From Desulfobulbus propionicus (lineage in GTDB: Bacteria; Desulfobacterota; Desulfobulbia; Desulfobulbales; Desulfobulbaceae), in NCBI GenBank assembly GCA_002748735.1, contig PDTC01000013.1, positions 44,405 through 108,404 on the forward strand: DNA of 64,000 nt, given 5' to 3'. The translations under genes and the position numbers were made by a program. This document shows, in pieces, positions 2,780 to 54,666 of this stretch. Within the stretch, counting starts at the first letter, position 1; the number at the start of each line of letters is the position of its first letter. The notes beneath the pieces were generated by a model. The model was given only the letters and a program-made list of their open reading frames with translations, ran no database searches and had not been told where the DNA came from.

Positions 2780-3480
2780 GTTAAACTCCTTTGGTTGAAT
2801 GAAGTAGAGCCTTGATCTGGTTAACAACGAACGTCATTCTACCCTACTGCCCAAATGTATGCCAGGTAAACGTGTGGGAGAGTATCGGGTTGAGCGCGCG
2901 CGGGATCGTTTGTCGAGGAGGTGCGGGCGATGGAAAAATAGAACAACACCCACTCGAATGCCCCATAACTTGGCCTCATACAAAGAAACCTCAGAGGAAA
3001 ACAGGTCAAGATGTTTGGCTAGGCGCAAATTTTTTCTTGATACGCATCGATAGCAGCATGCGGCATATTGAAAAAAGAGAGGGGCAGGACGGGAGTGTAC
3101 GTACTGAAACTCAAGATAACTGTGGAGGATTACGAATGGAAAAACTCTAGTTTTTTATAGCAACGTTTATGTAATAACCGTTGACGCTGGTTGAAAAAAA
3201 GGAATGGGCAAAGGTATATTTTTTGTCATAGTTGTACCTGGGCTGACAGGCAAGGCAGTACCTTGCAAGAAAAGACAGACGCATGGTGGTGCTCCTCCTC
3301 TCTATGTACTATGAAGGTAGCATGCTGTAAAACAAAGAAAAAGGACTGTCATTGGCCGTGTGGATTGTGCTACACTTGCGTGCGTGCAGATTCGACGGTA
3401 TCGGATCAGTATGACGATTCAACAACTCATTGTGTTTACGGAGTTTATATGGGGCATCTACCAGGAATGAAGGAGTGGAA
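2780..3480. other. 700-bp intergenic region without a supported gene
   Basis: This region separates the minus-strand tctCBA operon from a plus-strand regulator-like gene, so it should hold divergent promoters. Open frames here are short, overlap each other and carry no recognisable domain. A ribosome-binding-site-like GGAGGATTACGA followed by a five-codon frame (ATG at 3136) is present but is not convincing as a gene. I found no clear sigma-70 pair, riboswitch or tRNA. Confidence 0.5.
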
Positions 3481-7474: not shown

Positions 7475-8896
7475 TCAAAGCTCAATCACCTTATCCTTGG
7501 ACAGCCCTTTTCCCTGAGCCTGGACACTCTCAACAAAACACCCCCGAATATGCTTTCCGGGTTGGCCATGAAAGACCTGATACGGCAGACTGAAATGTAC
7601 AGTCCTGCCGCTATAGCCTACTCGCCCTTTGCCAAGCGTTTCAAGAAAGTGAAAAGCTCCGCCATCATAGGTAAACAGTACCGCACGAATGCTGCCGTTT
7701 CCTTTCTCCACCTCGTCGGGGTCGACATGCAGCACTACAGCAAAATCATACCCGACCCGTTCGCTATCAGCTGTAGCCGCACCACCTGTAGAGCGATCCA
7801 TATCAACGTCAAGAAGAAATTTCACCAACTCGTCATGTCCTTCTTCGCCACCCTCCTGGGCGGCAACAAAATACTTGTTCAATGGCTCGGCCAGATGGAC
7901 ACTCACCTCCAGGTCTTCGTCAATGTGCAGCAGGGTCACCCCCTGAATATCAAGCAACCTGCGGGCACCATTGTCGACACTGTCACCCACTGGATCACGC
8001 CAGACCACACCGGTGCTTACCTCCAGCGCTTTCGACTTTATGGGCTTGAGCTGGGTGGCTGCACCTTTAGACAGGGAAGTGATCTCCGTATTGTTAAAGA
8101 GAATTTCAGGAAGCTGTGGCCCCACAGTAACAACGGCGCCGACCATGCCCAGAAATACCACCACCACGCCCACAGCCGACAGAACTCCCCAGGCCATGGA
8201 CCCGGACCGGGTGGGCAGCGGTGAAGTTTCCTTGAGATCTCTGTACAGTCCGACCAAAAAAAACAGGAAAAATGGGGCAGCAAGGATTGCCAGCGGTTTC
8301 CCGACCCAGGGAATGGAGAAGAGCAACACCTTGATAAGCCAGAGCAGGAACAACTTAAATAAGACATTCCAGAAGCGGCCGCGAAGAGCCATGCGGCTGG
8401 CCTGCAGGGCCTGGATACCTCGGCAATTGTTATCGAGCAGAAAGAAAAACGCAAAAAAGAACCAGCAGGCAAAAAGAATACCTGGCAACACGGCAAGGAC
8501 AATGCCTGTCATGACAATTCCGGTATATATCAGGCATACAAAACCAAAAGGCAGCAGGTTCTGCCAGCCGGCGATCAGGGCCTGGTTAAAAGTACAGTCG
8601 TCGTCAAGTGCGGCAATCAGCTGGGTGCAGACCATCCATATACCGAACAGTGTGCCGATGCTTCCCAGGATTACCATGCCAATGATAACCTCTCTGTCCA
8701 GCTGGTGTCCGACAAAATCACCCATAAAGGCGTTCACTCCACCAGACAGGGTAACGACCAGGCCGCCGATTGCCAACAGCACTATGGAAAAAAACAGTGA
8801 AGGAAGGAACAGCAGCCCGAGGAGCACCCAGACGCGGCGCCGGTATACCTGCCAGGCTTCTCGGCACAGCCCCTGAAAGCTTTTCAGCTTCACCAT
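7475..8896 (-). CDS. Multi-pass membrane protein with C-terminal extracytoplasmic-type domain, unknown function
   Basis: A 473-residue protein. The first roughly 265 residues hold about six to seven hydrophobic segments in a pattern like YciC/glycerophosphodiester-phosphodiesterase-type membrane domains (long loops, GILFACWFFFAFFFLLDN). After a last hydrophobic segment a roughly 200-residue soluble domain follows, with a FLLDVDMDRSTGG...GYDFAVVLHVD stretch that looks like a beta-sandwich with acidic, possibly calcium-binding loops. No family could be named with confidence. ATG at 8896 follows GGGAGGGACGTGATC; a GTG two codons upstream is possible. It lies between yggU (42 bp) and the isomerase-like gene (14 bp), so probably one operon. 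Confidence 0.75.
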   Translation of the reverse strand: MVKLKSFQGLCREAWQVYRRRVWVLLGLLFLPSLFFSIVLLAIGGLVVTLSGGVNAFMGDFVGHQLDREVIIGMVILGSIGTLFGIWMVCTQLIAALDDDCTFNQALIAGWQNLLPFGFVCLIYTGIVMTGIVLAVLPGILFACWFFFAFFFLLDNNCRGIQALQASRMALRGRFWNVLFKLFLLWLIKVLLFSIPWVGKPLAILAAPFFLFFLVGLYRDLKETSPLPTRSGSMAWGVLSAVGVVVVFLGMVGAVVTVGPQLPEILFNNTEITSLSKGAATQLKPIKSKALEVSTGVVWRDPVGDSVDNGARRLLDIQGVTLLHIDEDLEVSVHLAEPLNKYFVAAQEGGEEGHDELVKFLLDVDMDRSTGGAATADSERVGYDFAVVLHVDPDEVEKGNGSIRAVLFTYDGGAFHFLETLGKGRVGYSGRTVHFSLPYQVFHGQPGKHIRGCFVESVQAQGKGLSKDKVIEL

Positions 8897-8938
8897 GATC
8901 ACGTCCCTCCCCGAACGAGCACGTCGGGTTTATCTGAA

Positions 8939-9244
8939 CTATGTTTCGGCAAGCAGTACCATGAGCCGATCACGGATCACCTGCTCATTGACGCCGCGCA
9001 GAACAACCAGTTTTTGCCGGCTTTGCTTCCCACTCTTGAGTGCCACAGCACCACGCTTCAACCCAAGCTGCCCGGCAAGGAAGCTGACAACCTCCTTGTT
9101 GGCCCGGCCTTCAACTGGTGGCGCCGTCAATCTGAGTTTAAGGCGATCACCATGGACGCCAACGACCTCATTTTTTCCAGCTCGAGGCTGCACGTAGAGG
9201 CGTAACTGCAGAGAGCCGTCACCACTGGTGTGTAAAAACGGCAC
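8939..9244 (-). CDS. yggU: YggU/DUF167 family protein
   Basis: A 101-residue protein of the DUF167 (YggU) family, which has a small alpha/beta fold and no settled biochemical role. Diagnostic segments are LRLYVQPRAGKNEVVGVHGD, LKLRLTAPPVEGRANKEV and GLKRGAVALKSGKQSRQKLV. The start is GTG at 9244, only 2 bp after the yggT stop. The yggT-yggU pair is a common bacterial gene order, often near cell-division or proC/yggS genes; here it follows metG. Confidence 0.92.
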   Translation of the reverse strand: MPFLHTSGDGSLQLRLYVQPRAGKNEVVGVHGDRLKLRLTAPPVEGRANKEVVSFLAGQLGLKRGAVALKSGKQSRQKLVVLRGVNEQVIRDRLMVLLAET

Positions 9245-49302: not shown

Positions 49303-49869
49303 TTGATAAAAAAGCTGCTGTTCGTGTTGTGGCCTCACCATCACAGCCATAAACCAATGAAAAAAATGCTCGTCTTCATCTTTGCCGGAATCTGCCTGGG
49401 AACAGCATTGTCATTAGTCGGCGCCGAGATGGTCGAACGTACCTCAGGGATTGAGTTCTGTGCTGAATGTCATTCCATGAAAGGGGTTGCCGAAGCCTAC
49501 CTCAACGATACCCATGGCGGCAACAACCCCTATGGTTTGCAGGCAAAGTGTGCTGATTGTCATTTGCCCCATGACACTGTTTTCACCTACATCACAGCCA
49601 AGGGGTATACCGGCATTAAAGACGTGTTAGGCGAACTGTTCTGGGTAGATTCGGTTGACTGGGTCGACCGTCTTCACAAGCGGCAAGAATTTACCTACTC
49701 CAGTGGTTGCAAGAAATGTCACGATCTCGATGCGATCAGCTATGATATCCCCAAGGCATACCTGGCGCATAAAGATTTCAAAACAGGCAAAGTGGATTCC
49801 TGTGTGCACTGTCATGAACATGTTGGCCACAAGGATATTAAAGCCCACCTGCCAAAATCGACGTCATAG
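49303..49869 (+). CDS. Membrane-bound tetraheme cytochrome c, NapC/NirT/NrfH family
   Basis: A 188-residue quinol-oxidising cytochrome. One N-terminal membrane anchor (about 20-40) is followed by four CxxCH heme sites at residues 53, 83, 136 and 167 on the periplasmic side. It would pass electrons from the menaquinol pool to a periplasmic partner, here the octaheme protein encoded 9 bp downstream. The frame opens at TTG (49303), giving a basic start KKLLFVLWPHHHSHK; an ATG at 49357 would leave too short a cytoplasmic lead. Neither has a good ribosome-binding site. Confidence 0.88.
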   Translation: MIKKLLFVLWPHHHSHKPMKKMLVFIFAGICLGTALSLVGAEMVERTSGIEFCAECHSMKGVAEAYLNDTHGGNNPYGLQAKCADCHLPHDTVFTYITAKGYTGIKDVLGELFWVDSVDWVDRLHKRQEFTYSSGCKKCHDLDAISYDIPKAYLAHKDFKTGKVDSCVHCHEHVGHKDIKAHLPKSTS

Positions 49870-49878
49870 GAGGTACCC

Positions 49879-51198
49879 ATGCGGTTAGCCATACGCCTAC
49901 TATGGGCAGTGTTTTTATCCTTTGGCCTGAACTGTACCGCTTTTGCGGTTGACAGCACCGTCAAAACCCTGAAGGTTGAACGCGGCCTGTCCCCTGCGGG
50001 ACGCCAATGTGTTGAGTGTCACGCCAAAGCGCAGCCGGGCATCGTCGCCGACTGGAAACAGAGCCGGCATGGACACGTCAATGTGTCCTGCATTGATTGT
50101 CACCAGGTGGACGCCGGCTCACCTATGGCATCCCAGAGCTGCCCCGGTGTCCAAGGGACGGACATCTATATGTCTGTTCTGGTCTCTCCGAAAACCTGTG
50201 GGCGCTGCCACAGTCAGGAGGTGAAGCAGTTCAGTGCCAGTGGACATTTCCGTGGAAGTAAGCAGTATCACGATGAAGATGGACGAAATTACAAGGTGAT
50301 GAAAAGTCTTACCCAGACTCATGAAGGCCAGGGGTTGGAGAAGTTCAGACATGCGGCAGATATGACGGGCTGCATGCAGTGCCATGGTTCGAATGTGGTT
50401 CTTGACGCCGACAACAGACCCACCAAAGAGACCTGGCCTGTCGCCGGCATCGCCACGGTGTATCCAGATGGAGGCGTGGGAAACTGTGTAGCCTGTCACA
50501 CCAGGCATCGTTTTAGCATTGCCGAGGCAAGAAAACCTGCGGCCTGCGCCTCCTGCCACCTGGGTCCGGATCACCCGGATATCGAAATTTATAACAATTC
50601 CAAGCACGGGCATATCTATAATGCAGAGGGGAGTGAATGGAATTTTACCGCTGCCCCGGATACCTGGGAACCCGGTGACTATCGAGCACCTACCTGTGCC
50701 GTCTGTCACCAGAGCGGTATCGGTGATCTCGAAACCACGCACAACGTCTCTGAGCGGCTCAAATGGAACCTGTGGGCAAAGCGATCCAAGCTCAGAAATT
50801 CACCGGACCCCTTGTCCATGTGGACCGGCGATGGAGAAAAGGGAAGAATGCAGATGAAAAAGGTCTGTCGCAACTGCCACAGCTCATCACATGGTGACCG
50901 CTTTTTTGAGCAGGCCGATAATCATATCGAATTGTATAACGAGGGCTACTTCGATGTAGCTGAGACTCTGCGCAAGGAACTCGCTGCAAAGGGGCTGTTA
51001 AAGAAAAATCCGTGGGATGACGAATTCCTCAAGATCTACTATCATCTCTGGCATCATGAAGGGCGGCGAATGCGACAGGGTGCCGCTATGGGGGCCCCGG
51101 ATTATGCCCATTGGCACGGTGTCTTTGAGCTCCAGCAAGATTTGTATGAACTCAAAGATATCCACAAGAGGCGGATGGCGGCGGGTAAGCTGGAGTGA
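49879..51198 (+). CDS. Octaheme cytochrome c, hydroxylamine oxidoreductase (HAO)-like
   Basis: A 439-residue periplasmic protein. A signal peptide (residues 1-23, cut after TAFA) is followed by eight CxxCH sites at about 44, 71, 107, 165, 203, 223, 273 and 330. The order of sites and the C-terminal MGAPDYAHWHGVFEL fit the HAO family. HAO proteins next to a NapC/NrfH gene are known in Epsilonproteobacteria and some Desulfobacterota, where they probably reduce hydroxylamine or nitrite instead of oxidising hydroxylamine. Whether the catalytic tyrosine that cross-links heme P460 is present needs alignment. GGAGGTACCC precedes the ATG and a terminator follows the gene. Confidence 0.88.
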   Translation: MRLAIRLLWAVFLSFGLNCTAFAVDSTVKTLKVERGLSPAGRQCVECHAKAQPGIVADWKQSRHGHVNVSCIDCHQVDAGSPMASQSCPGVQGTDIYMSVLVSPKTCGRCHSQEVKQFSASGHFRGSKQYHDEDGRNYKVMKSLTQTHEGQGLEKFRHAADMTGCMQCHGSNVVLDADNRPTKETWPVAGIATVYPDGGVGNCVACHTRHRFSIAEARKPAACASCHLGPDHPDIEIYNNSKHGHIYNAEGSEWNFTAAPDTWEPGDYRAPTCAVCHQSGIGDLETTHNVSERLKWNLWAKRSKLRNSPDPLSMWTGDGEKGRMQMKKVCRNCHSSSHGDRFFEQADNHIELYNEGYFDVAETLRKELAAKGLLKKNPWDDEFLKIYYHLWHHEGRRMRQGAAMGAPDYAHWHGVFELQQDLYELKDIHKRRMAAGKLE

Positions 51199-51319: not shown

Positions 51320-52546
51320 TCAGCGAATCAGTTGATTCATTTCGAAAATGGGCAGCAGGATCGAGACGACGATGAAGGCCACCGCAACGCCCATGACCAG
51401 GATCATAATTGGCTCAATGAGCGAGGTAAGGCCGAGCACCTTGGCCTCCACCTCACGTTCGTAACTACGGGCGGCCTTGTCGAGCATGCCTTCCAGGGCA
51501 CCGCTCTGTTCCCCGACCGCGATCATCTGCACCAGCATCGGCGGGAACCATCTGCTGTTGTTTAGCGTCTGCGAGAGGCTTTTTCCCTTCTCAATTTCCT
51601 CACATGCGGTACTGATGACCTCCGCCATGAGGGTGTTGTTGACGATGTTTTTCACGATGTTCAAGGCGGCGATCAGGGGAACGCCCGAGGCGAGCAGGCT
51701 TGACAGGGTTCGTCCGAAGCGGGCGGCACCAATCTTGAGGTTGAGATCCCGAAGTCCCGGTAGGGTGAGTTTGCCCCGATCCCAGGCCCTTCTTCCCCTG
51801 GGGAGCTTGATGAGAAAACGGAAAAAAAAGAACAGCCCTGTCAGGACAAGCAGCAGGACCCACCAGAACTGTTTGAGAAATCCACTCAGGCCGATAAGAA
51901 GAATGGTCGGGAGTGGTAATGCCTGTTGGGTTCCCTCGAAGACAGAGGTTATGCTGGGGACAATGAAGGTTATCAGCAGAAACAGGACCAGTATGCCGAC
52001 GACGGCCATGAAAAGAGGATAGAGCAGCGCTGCCGTGATCCGGGACTTGAGCATCTGCTGGTTCTCTCCAAACTCGGCCAGCCGTTCAAGCACCACGCCC
52101 AGCGACCCTGATGCCTCTCCAGCCCTGACCATATTTATGTAGATCCGCGAAAATAATCGGGGATGGTGCTCAAGGGCCACGGTCATGGAGTTCCCCTCGT
52201 TGACCGTATCCTTGATCTGGGTGAAGACCGTCTTCAGGCCTTTGTTCTCTGTCTGGGCGATAAGGCCATCCAGGGCAGGTATCAGTGATATTCCCGCATT
52301 GAGCAGCGTGGCGAGCTGCCGGGTCGCTATGGAGATATCCTGCGGCCGGATACGGGGAGAAAAGCTGAACTGCAGCGATGTGCTGCTTCCGGTGCCTTTG
52401 GTCTGGGTGTGACGTTCTTTGATGTCTACCGGATAGAGACCCTGGCTGCGGATGCGCGTCCGCGCTGCAGTCAGGGATTCAGCTTCGATCATACCTTTAC
52501 TTTTTTTGCCTCGGGCATTGAGGGCTGTATAGTCAAAAAGGGGCAT
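51320..52546 (-). CDS. Type II secretion/type IV pilus inner-membrane platform protein (GspF/PilC)
   Basis: A 408-residue platform protein. Two homologous T2SF domains (about 70-195 and 275-400) share a FxRxLATLLxAGxSLIxAL-type motif (IATRQLATLLNAGISLIPAL, FGRTLSSLLASGVPLIAAL). Three hydrophobic helices lie around 170-190, 215-240 and 375-400. The N-terminal PLFDYTALNARGKKSKG is typical of GspF. No gspD, gspE or pilB is adjacent, so this is a detached component that may serve the pilus or secretion system encoded elsewhere, for example together with the PilT/PilU-type ATPase at 19.5 kb. Confidence 0.93.
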   Translation of the reverse strand: MPLFDYTALNARGKKSKGMIEAESLTAARTRIRSQGLYPVDIKERHTQTKGTGSSTSLQFSFSPRIRPQDISIATRQLATLLNAGISLIPALDGLIAQTENKGLKTVFTQIKDTVNEGNSMTVALEHHPRLFSRIYINMVRAGEASGSLGVVLERLAEFGENQQMLKSRITAALLYPLFMAVVGILVLFLLITFIVPSITSVFEGTQQALPLPTILLIGLSGFLKQFWWVLLLVLTGLFFFFRFLIKLPRGRRAWDRGKLTLPGLRDLNLKIGAARFGRTLSSLLASGVPLIAALNIVKNIVNNTLMAEVISTACEEIEKGKSLSQTLNNSRWFPPMLVQMIAVGEQSGALEGMLDKAARSYEREVEAKVLGLTSLIEPIMILVMGVAVAFIVVSILLPIFEMNQLIR

Positions 52547-52714
52547 GCTGCTCCTGATGGTGGGGGGTCGATGTGCTGCTCCCGGGAGCAGTCCTGTGGA
52601 AATGATACAGTATTTTTTCCTGTAAAGGAAAAAGAAACCATCAAAGATTGCATGACTGGCCCGGTGTGCTACAATGGCACTCCCTTTGAAAAATTACCAA
52701 GGAGATGGAACACC

Positions 52715-52939
52715 ATGAAAATAGCCATTGAATACTGCACCAGTTGAAACTATAAACCACGCGCCACCAGGTTGGAGGGCGAAATACGAGATCGCTTCGG
52801 CAAAGAGGTGAGTGTTGCATTGATTGCCAGCTCCGGCGGAGTTTTTGAGGTATTTAAAGACGATACCCTTCTCTTTTCCAAGCGACAGCTTGGCCGGTTT
52901 CCCGAGGAAGGGGAGATCTGCCGGATGCTGGCAGATTGA
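52715..52939 (+). CDS. SelW/Rdx-type selenoprotein with in-frame UGA (Sec11)
   Basis: A 74-residue thioredoxin-fold-like protein read through an in-frame TGA at 52745-52747. The translation starts MKIAIEYCTSU, giving the CxxU redox motif (Cys8, Sec11) that opens every SelW/SelT/SelH/Rdx protein; it continues NYKPRATRLEGEIRDRFG, then VSVALIASSGGVFEVF and KDDTLLFSKRQLGRFPEEGE. The pattern after the TGA, a basic helix, hydrophobic strand, GGVFEV strand and FSK...GRFP, fits the family closely. AAGGAG lies about 10 bp before the ATG, and a SECIS-like hairpin lies 14 bp after the TGA. The true stop is TGA at 52937. It probably precedes recN in one transcript. SelA, SelB and tRNA-Sec must be encoded elsewhere. 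Confidence 0.87.
52762..52781 (+). promoter_or_regulatory. Bacterial SECIS-like hairpin inside the selenoprotein gene
   Basis: CGCC-A-CCA-GGT-TGG-AG-GGCG folds into a two-part stem with GGU in the apical loop, 22 nt after the in-frame TGA. Bacterial SECIS elements sit directly downstream of UGA and carry a GU in the loop, bound by SelB. Confidence 0.65.
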
Positions 52940-52977: not shown

Positions 52978-54666
52978 ATGCTGCAGGAACTGCGGATCAG
53001 TAACCTGGCACTGATTGACTCCCTTGTCCTGGAGTTGACAGCCAGTGAGGTGGGCCTCCTTGTCCTTACCGGTGAGACCGGGGCGGGGAAGTCCATCTTG
53101 CTCAGCGCCATTCATCTGCTTAACGGCCGTCGTGGTACTGCTGACTGGATACGCGGTAACTGTGACGAGGCGGTTATCGAGGCACTGTTTCGGATTCGTC
53201 CGGATCAGCATGCTGTACTGGAGCTGCTCAAAGAGCAGGGGCTCGATGATGAGGACTCCTTGATTGTCCGCCGGGTGCTCAGCCGCAAGGGAAGAAATCG
53301 GGTCTTTGTCAACGATCGACTGGTCACCTCACGGCTGGCAGGCCGTCTTCTCGAGAACCTGGTGACCATCGCCAGTCAGCATGATCACCAGCAACTTCTC
53401 AACAGCTCAAAGCATCTGCAGTTCCTGGATACCTACGGTGACCTTGATGAGATGCGCCAGGCCTATACCCGGCGGTTTCACCGTTGGCAACAGCTACTTT
53501 TGGTACGTCGCCAGTTGCAGGAAAAGGAGCAGGACAAGGAACAGCGCCGAGATTTTCTCGCGTTTCAGCTGGGTGAGATTCAATCGGCGGCGATCACTGC
53601 CGGCGAGGATGAAAATCTGGACAACGAGCGTCGGGTGCTCCGATCCTCTGCAGAACTTGCCGACCTGGTGGGACAGAGTTGTGCGCACCTGAGCGGCCCC
53701 ACGCCTGATACCCTCAACGAGGTGAGCAGGCATCTGGACCGGGCCGCAGCTCTGGATCCCGGACTGGCTGAAGTGTCACGGCAGTTCACCTCGGCGACGC
53801 TGGAGATCGAGGACTGCGGCCGGACCCTGCGTGCCTACCTGGAGCAGCTTCCTCAGGATCGGCAGCGCATTGAGCAAATCAATGCCCGCCTTGCCGAGTT
53901 GAAGGCGCTGCAGCGTAAATATGGTCCAACCCTTGCCGAAGTCATTGCCTTTGCCGCTGCTGCCGAACAGGAACTGGCTGGCCTGGAGAGCCTGGAGCAG
54001 GAGATGGAACAGCTGGACGTCGAGCTGGAGACAATGGGTCGCGAGGTGATGATCAGGGCCACCGAGCTCAGTGCTGCCCGTCAGGAGGTGGCTGGTCGTC
54101 TCGCCTCTGCCATGCAAGCAGAGCTGGCTTCACTCAGTTTTCCCCAGGCAGAGTTTGTTGTCGATATCGCCAGCGGCAGTGCCGGAGAAAAAGAGAGCCT
54201 GCAGGCTTCAGGGGGGGATCAGGTGAGCTTTCTCTTTTCCGCCAACCCCGGGGAGGCCCCTAAGGAACTCGTCAAGGTCGCTTCCGGTGGTGAGCTCAGC
54301 CGTCTCCTCCTGGCAATGAAGTGCCTGCTTGCCCGCCGTGATCTGGTGGATACGGTGATCTTCGATGAGGTTGACGCAGGTATCGGCGGTCAGGCCGCTG
54401 AGGCCGTTGCTGAAAAAATCTACGAGCTCGCCGGTCACCACCAGGTCTTCTGCATCACCCATCTCCCCCAGATAGCTGCCTATGCCCACCGTCATTACCG
54501 GGTCGACAAAGAGGTCGAAGATAATCGTACCCGCAGCACTGTGCGGGTGTTGCCGCCCGAGGCACGTGTTGACGAGATAGCCCGCATGCTTGCCGGCACA
54601 AATCCCACTGCCCAGACGCTTGCCTATGCAGAAGAGCTGCTCAACCGCCGCGCCGGAGGGCAGTGA
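52978..54666 (+). CDS. recN: DNA repair protein RecN
   Basis: SMC-like repair ATPase (562 aa) acting on double-strand breaks. N-terminal MLQELRISNLALIDSLVLEL with Walker A TGETGAGKSILLSAI, central coiled coils with an AxLKALxRKYG-type turn (RLAELKALQRKYGPTLAE), and the C-terminal ABC half with signature VASGGELSRLLLAMK, Walker B VIFDEVDAGIGG and the ITHLPQIAAYA loop. Length is standard. The last four bases overlap the start of the next gene. Confidence 0.97.
   Translation: MLQELRISNLALIDSLVLELTASEVGLLVLTGETGAGKSILLSAIHLLNGRRGTADWIRGNCDEAVIEALFRIRPDQHAVLELLKEQGLDDEDSLIVRRVLSRKGRNRVFVNDRLVTSRLAGRLLENLVTIASQHDHQQLLNSSKHLQFLDTYGDLDEMRQAYTRRFHRWQQLLLVRRQLQEKEQDKEQRRDFLAFQLGEIQSAAITAGEDENLDNERRVLRSSAELADLVGQSCAHLSGPTPDTLNEVSRHLDRAAALDPGLAEVSRQFTSATLEIEDCGRTLRAYLEQLPQDRQRIEQINARLAELKALQRKYGPTLAEVIAFAAAAEQELAGLESLEQEMEQLDVELETMGREVMIRATELSAARQEVAGRLASAMQAELASLSFPQAEFVVDIASGSAGEKESLQASGGDQVSFLFSANPGEAPKELVKVASGGELSRLLLAMKCLLARRDLVDTVIFDEVDAGIGGQAAEAVAEKIYELAGHHQVFCITHLPQIAAYAHRHYRVDKEVEDNRTRSTVRVLPPEARVDEIARMLAGTNPTAQTLAYAEELLNRRAGGQ

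Follow-up and report, generated by a model that had tools for sequence, protein, structure and literature searches.

A SelW-like gene with an in-frame TGA upstream of recN in a Desulfobulbales-like genome, and related genes on marine viral contigs

The window (the whole stretch of 64,000 nucleotides analysed here) carries a short gene between a type II secretion protein F-like gene on the opposite strand and recN (Table 1). Its frame stops after ten codons at a TGA, as the initial annotation had pointed out, and translation confirmed that reading this codon as selenocysteine (Sec) yields a product of 74 residues, MKIAIEYCTSUNYKPRATRLEGEIRDRFGKEVSVALIASSGGVFEVFKDDTLLFSKRQLGRFPEEGEICRMLAD, with the N-terminal CxxU redox motif CTSU at residues 8-11. 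The proposed ribosome-binding site before the ATG could be read directly from the sequence, and the placement of the gene just 5′ of recN was likewise correct. Related loci were fetched for comparison; these 30 loci, the window's own among them, are the best-scoring ones, and the hairpin sets described below also use best-scoring loci only. The T2SSF-like gene lies upstream on the opposite strand in at least 22 of the 30 loci and recN lies downstream, within the stretch examined, in at least 25 (own locus included in both counts); these numbers are lower bounds, as contig ends truncate several loci. In the window and in L029 the recN match comes immediately after the gene; in the other 23 it begins approximately 0.6-1 kb further on. 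NAD kinase, a common neighbour, was not supported as the gene between the SelW-like gene and recN in relatives, the 200-aa frame found there in L017 having no Pfam match. Elsewhere in the window, a NapC/NirT-type cytochrome gene followed by a multihaem cytochrome gene occupies 49303-51198.

Table 1. Features of the SelW-like locus in the window and of SelW/Rdx-like genes on viral contigs
Feature	Position	Strand	Basis or remark
Type II secretion protein F-like gene, upstream neighbour	51320..52546	-	Pfam T2SSF; stop TGA
AAGGAG, ribosome-binding-like	52699..52704	+	Read from sequence; ten bases 5′ of ATG 52715
SelW/Rdx-type selenoprotein gene	52715..52939	+	74 codons + stop; translation, Pfam Rdx, NCBIfam NF041051
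In-frame TGA, codon 11, proposed selenocysteine codon	52745..52747	+	TGA at query residue 11 in 30/30 fetched loci, own included
SECIS-like hairpin	52764..52778	+	Conserved stem 52764-52769 with 52773-52778; loop GGU 52770-52772
Terminating stop, also TGA	52937..52939	+	Homologue frame lengths and stops (n=30)
recN, neighbour	52978..54666	+	Pfam SMC_N/RecN; stop TGA
Viral SelW/Rdx-like gene with in-frame TGA	L101:7863-8087	-	
Viral SelW/Rdx-like gene with in-frame TGA	L097:6528-6803	+	
Viral SelW/Rdx-like gene with in-frame TGA	L102:3285-3530	+	
Viral SelW/Rdx-like gene with in-frame TGA	L107:8768-8998	+	
Viral SelW/Rdx-like gene with in-frame TGA	L112:509-736	-	
Viral SelW/Rdx-like gene with in-frame TGA	L098:3189-3392	+	

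The assignment to the SelW/Rdx family was borne out by profile searches. The whole protein matched Pfam Rdx (PF10262) with 74.2 bits against a gathering score of 22.6 (E 9.9e-21, profile positions 1-72 of 74), and the 63 residues after the TGA matched it by themselves with 48.4 bits (E 1.1e-12); with such E values for the whole protein and for the post-TGA residues, the match is not due to chance. TIGR02174 (CXXU_selWTH) gave 62.9 bits against a cut-off of 34.2. In an alignment of 17 sequences, both columns of the CxxU motif were invariant. A search with phmmer matched seven distinct PDB sequences, the best of which was 2fa8 (E 4.1e-11), while a single-sequence structure model (helix, two strands, helix) was of low confidence (mean pLDDT 56.6) and decides nothing on the thioredoxin-like fold expected of the family. 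The expectation that standard annotation would miss the gene held only in part, since an NCBIfam model for such proteins exists, NF041051 (SelTWH_Campy, SelT/SelW/SelH family (seleno)protein), and the sequence, with Cys written for Sec, passes it (96.6 bits; cut-off 88). The annotation is corrected here for a gene that could otherwise be called a ten-codon fragment or nothing. In the gaps between window ORFs of at least 150 aa, six other frames of 66-195 residues with an in-frame TGA were found by a scan restricted to frames whose preceding stop lay within the gap; it was thus not complete, as it missed even the known SelW-like gene.

The initial annotation had made its reading depend on conservation of the codons after the TGA in related genomes, and these codons proved to be conserved. 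Of 96 genomes (the own genome, others of its family and others of its order), 74, the own one included, had an Rdx match. Exactly one TGA was crossed by 74 of the 75 matches; the remaining one, an additional match in a genome already counted among the 74, begins at residue 28. A phylum-wide draw gave matches in 57 of 395 genomes, with the TGA in 53 of 58 matches, one of which has a TAG too. Differences at codon positions 1, 2 and 3 were 0.262, 0.182 and 0.511 in the 16 codons that directly follow the TGA, and 0.325, 0.169 and 0.509 in the ten codons before it. One could envision that the gene is a pseudogene, in which a recent nonsense mutation has turned the TGC or TGT of a Cys-type Rdx gene into TGA, given that the two halves are separated by the TGA alone and that Cys forms exist: Cys occupies the Sec position in L068, L069, L161 and L164, in a comparison whose E-value filter left out two of the five non-TGA matches of the phylum draw (L162 and L163). 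However, matches cross the TGA in 74 genomes, the distribution of differences over the codon positions indicates protein-level constraint after the TGA, and, as described below, at least five of six stem pairs are kept in every one of 73 TGA copies, so that a pseudogene is exceedingly improbable. A Cys-type pattern search across the genomes gave nine stretches, two of them relatives (L068 and L069); because this pattern seeds on Cys forms only, it does not give the number of Sec forms. In L068, a Myxococcales MAG, a TGA-type and a Cys-type Rdx match (2765-2968 and 3001-3204) lie 32 bp apart. Another pair of adjacent Rdx copies, L079 and L165 (G407:C134:8328-8540 and 8895-9113), has TGA in one copy and GGA (Gly) in the next at the Sec position.

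The distal stop had been described as clean. It is itself a TGA, but the frames of all 30 homologues (own included) are 71-77 codons long, with TGA as the stop in 15, TAA in eight and TAG in seven, and the common length together with the TAA and TAG stops of half of them makes the distal TGA credible as a stop. The same data bear on the possibility that UGA is an ordinary sense codon here (e.g. for Trp) or is subject to non-specific readthrough. Such a reading would account for passage through codon 11, yet recN and the T2SSF-like neighbour both stop with TGA, as do 15 of the 30 homologues of the gene itself; moreover, the TGA falls at the Cys/Sec position of the CxxC/CxxU motif, and selA, selD and tRNA-Sec are present in the genome. 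We therefore give this possibility next to no weight against decoding as Sec.

A SECIS-like hairpin had been proposed downstream of the TGA. Its GGU loop 22 nt after the TGA was confirmed and its stem is supported by comparison, but its folding energy is unremarkable. In the window copy the third pair of the stem is an A.A mismatch (52766/52776), and in the minimum-energy fold CGCC at 52762-52765 pairs with GGCG at 52778-52781, outside the mismatch. The 56-nt region folded alone gave a z of 0.03, with 92 of 200 shuffles as good, and a 28-mer gave -1.16 under a plain shuffle; single-sequence folding was therefore rejected as proof of a SECIS in the window. The 30 loci averaged a z of -1.42, and 20 of them were below -1. 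Because shuffled versions of the window region fold equally well, support for the hairpin comes entirely from comparison.

For the 30 sequences, the stem was defined as six pairs, columns 20-25 pairing with columns 29-34 (numbering begins at the T of the TGA). Three measures exceeded all of 500 shuffles: the fraction of stem cells paired (95.6% versus 89.4% in shuffles), the number of cells changed on both sides (12 versus 3.4) and the covariation score (0.266 versus 0.137). The number of pair types was reached by 14 of 500 shuffles; the count of pairs with a two-sided change was unexceptional, with 140 of 500 shuffles as high. When the partners were slid, pairing fell to 32-61%. The comparison was widened to 73 distinct 42-mers, comprising 30 from the order, 25 from the phylum group (including the TGA copy of the Myxococcales MAG L068), 15 from a phage clade and three other viral sequences; two late TGA copies, L166 and L167, which keep five and six of six pairs, were left out. 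Across seven candidate pairs, 90.2% of the cells were paired, versus 29-52% when slid. Pair 21-33 was kept in all 73 copies with six pair types, and the outermost pair, 19-35, in only 36. All six inner pairs were present in 60 of the 73 copies and five in the other 13 (the window and twelve others), and the first loop base was G in every copy. Six copies without TGA kept 4, 4, 3, 3, 3 and 5 of six pairs, the Gly-type copy of the L079/L165 pair being one with four; these are a weak control, as their number is small, some pairing is imposed by the common protein sequence, and one of them equals the five of six seen in the window. The SelW-like gene is thus a case in which comparison, and not folding energy, establishes a SECIS.

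The check for Sec machinery in the genome succeeded for selA (617 bits), selD (364 bits) and tRNA-Sec (72.6 bits, confirmed by ARAGORN with anticodon TCA), but selB was not found. The selD match contains one internal TGA (locus L067, G000:C18:45080-46021, minus strand), and this in-frame codon makes selD probably a selenoprotein gene as well. For selB, nothing scored over the cut-off in the own assembly, which is 85.6% complete at 1.8 Mb; the best match was a 921-aa frame with 103 bits. Among the 96 genomes, 82 had selB over the cut-off, although a few of these matches cover only part of the profile. Many relatives also had, among the matches listed, ones near 190 bits, presumably EF-Tu, and these are absent from the own assembly, which suggests that sequence is missing from it. 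Rdx and selB occurred together in 67 genomes, Rdx without selB in seven, selB without Rdx in 15 and neither in seven (Fisher p 0.016, kinship ignored); the own genome is one of the seven among the 74 Rdx-positive genomes that lack selB over the cut-off. In the same family, the nine genomes of genus g8 keep selB and have no Rdx match, and the five of genus g10 have neither over thresholds, which suggests separate losses in the two genera. Another interpretation of the missing selB is that the gene is real and ancestral but that selB was lost in this lineage, so that the product is no longer made. The mismatch in the window hairpin would fit such a loss. On the other hand, the incomplete assembly lacks the presumed EF-Tu matches too, selA, selD and tRNA-Sec have been retained, and twelve further TGA copies likewise stand at five of six pairs. 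We think that loss of selB is very unlikely, though less remote than the two possibilities considered above.

The computed results are thus homologous sequence before and after the TGA, a conserved TGA, covariation in the hairpin and the presence of selA, selD and tRNA-Sec; with them it is almost certain that the window gene is a genuine bacterial SelW-like selenoprotein gene of the Rdx family, with UGA read as Sec by means of a SelB-bound hairpin. Ribosomes would start at 52715 and meet the UGA at codon 11, where SelB carrying Sec-tRNA-Sec would bind the hairpin just downstream; Sec would then be inserted and translation would go on to the stop at 52937. The product would be a small CxxU protein with thiol/selenol redox activity.

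SelW-like genes were also found on viral contigs in IMG/VR, 27 contigs in total, 25 of them with TGA, when pattern and post-TGA searches were combined; some of the 27 may be one virus from several samples. The DNA pattern for YCxxUNY[KQ]P gave 25 stretches, which were sorted by eye into 19 Rdx-like frames (including L106, truncated at the contig end) and six spurious short frames. A tblastn search with the window protein found only 13 of these 25 stretches. Searching with the residues after the TGA yielded 22 loci, 20 with TGA and two identical ones without. Three distinct viral genes (L098 with its copy L117, L100 and L112) scored 67-78 bits against Pfam Rdx. The others form a divergent clade, of which seven members scanned gave 18-31 bits, two of them above the gathering score. 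In a tree of 73 sequences, 15 distinct viral clade members, with the protein pattern KYCGSU-NY[KR]P...GQFELF, grouped alone with support 1.0. The seven-pair hairpin was intact in all 15. It hardly varies within the clade, as four pairs are constant, two change only to G-U, and pair 21-33 is changed on both sides in two of the 15; the evidence for structure lies mainly in the contrast with the bacterial stems, where the same positions pair through different letters. The two identical loci without TGA (L133:8001-8189 and L134:1514-1702) are a copy from the viral clade with CGRKY in place of CGSUNY, a motif one codon shorter and one broken hairpin pair. A one-pattern search of the viral contigs for a Cys form gave 21 stretches, all of them short frames unlike Rdx. 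When the window protein, the L097 residues after the TGA and the L112 protein were run by tblastn against the 50,697 records of INPHARED, none gave a match.

Twelve of the 27 viral contigs, 11 of them with a TGA copy, were examined for phage genes. The T4-type major capsid protein Gp23 was encoded in five of the 12 and in none of 14 control genomes, and phrog_262 DNA polymerase in seven of the 12, although the latter was also matched in five of the 14 controls. At least one of the two was present in nine records and neither in three; among the TGA records the number was eight of 11, and the record of the TGA-less copy is also one of the nine. Some of the contigs clearly stem from T4-like phages. 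In L101 the SelW-like gene is flanked by a DNA polymerase gene and a UvsX-like gene; the mechanical start of the latter gives an overlap of 76 bases with the SelW-like gene. The 12 records, which may be fragments, contain no tRNA-Sec above the cut-off; weaker matches occurred in eight, and the four of these that were fetched were identified by ARAGORN as tRNAs for Arg, Gly, Tyr and Cys. In 23 viral loci, TGA ends 89 of 237 long frames and is therefore an ordinary stop, which argues against reassignment. We think it likely that marine T4-like phages carry the same SelW/SECIS module, as a divergent clade with the TGA and hairpin in the bacterial place and with different stem letters, and that the Sec machinery of the host is used. 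If this is true, then such phages depend on the machinery of Sec-decoding hosts to make a selenoprotein of their own during infection and are tied to these hosts through the 21st amino acid, and part of what appears as SelW-like in marine metagenomes may be viral.

SelW-like proteins are listed among the selenoproteins of Desulfotalea psychrophila and others, and among those for which Sec-containing organisms have hardly any Cys homologues, or none (PMC1794560). In the Sargasso Sea set they outnumber every other family (PMC1088965), and they rank first in a table of marine families (PMC2398784); a SELENOW-like entry with pfam10262 and CxxU is listed in PMC9312934. Since bacterial selenoproteins of the SelW-like kind had been published by 2005, the window gene belongs to an already described group, of a kind known for deltaproteobacteria; the viral carriers are less expected. 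A tRNA-Sec has been described in Bacillus phages, to its authors' knowledge the first in bacteriophages (PMC6145125). No report of SelW selenoproteins in phages was found among titles and abstract openings of the open-access papers searched, and a word count of PMC1088965 gave no mention of virus or phage. Phage SelW genes would bear on the conclusion of that study that the SelW contigs of the Sargasso Sea derive from bacteria.

Compared with bacterial SelW-like selenoproteins (Rdx, PF10262), the window gene shares the family, the CxxU motif, the TGA codon and a hairpin at a near-downstream position with G in its loop; nothing essential is different, and the window hairpin has one mismatch in the conserved stem. 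The curated cut-off of NF041051 is passed by the window protein, whereas the name of the model points to campylobacters and the genome here is Desulfobulbales-like. Among solved Rdx structures, 2fa8, 3dex and 2p0g are sequence homologues of the window protein over most of its length. Their chains are longer, at 103-117 residues, and in the printed alignments 2fa8 and 3dex have Cys at the position of Sec.
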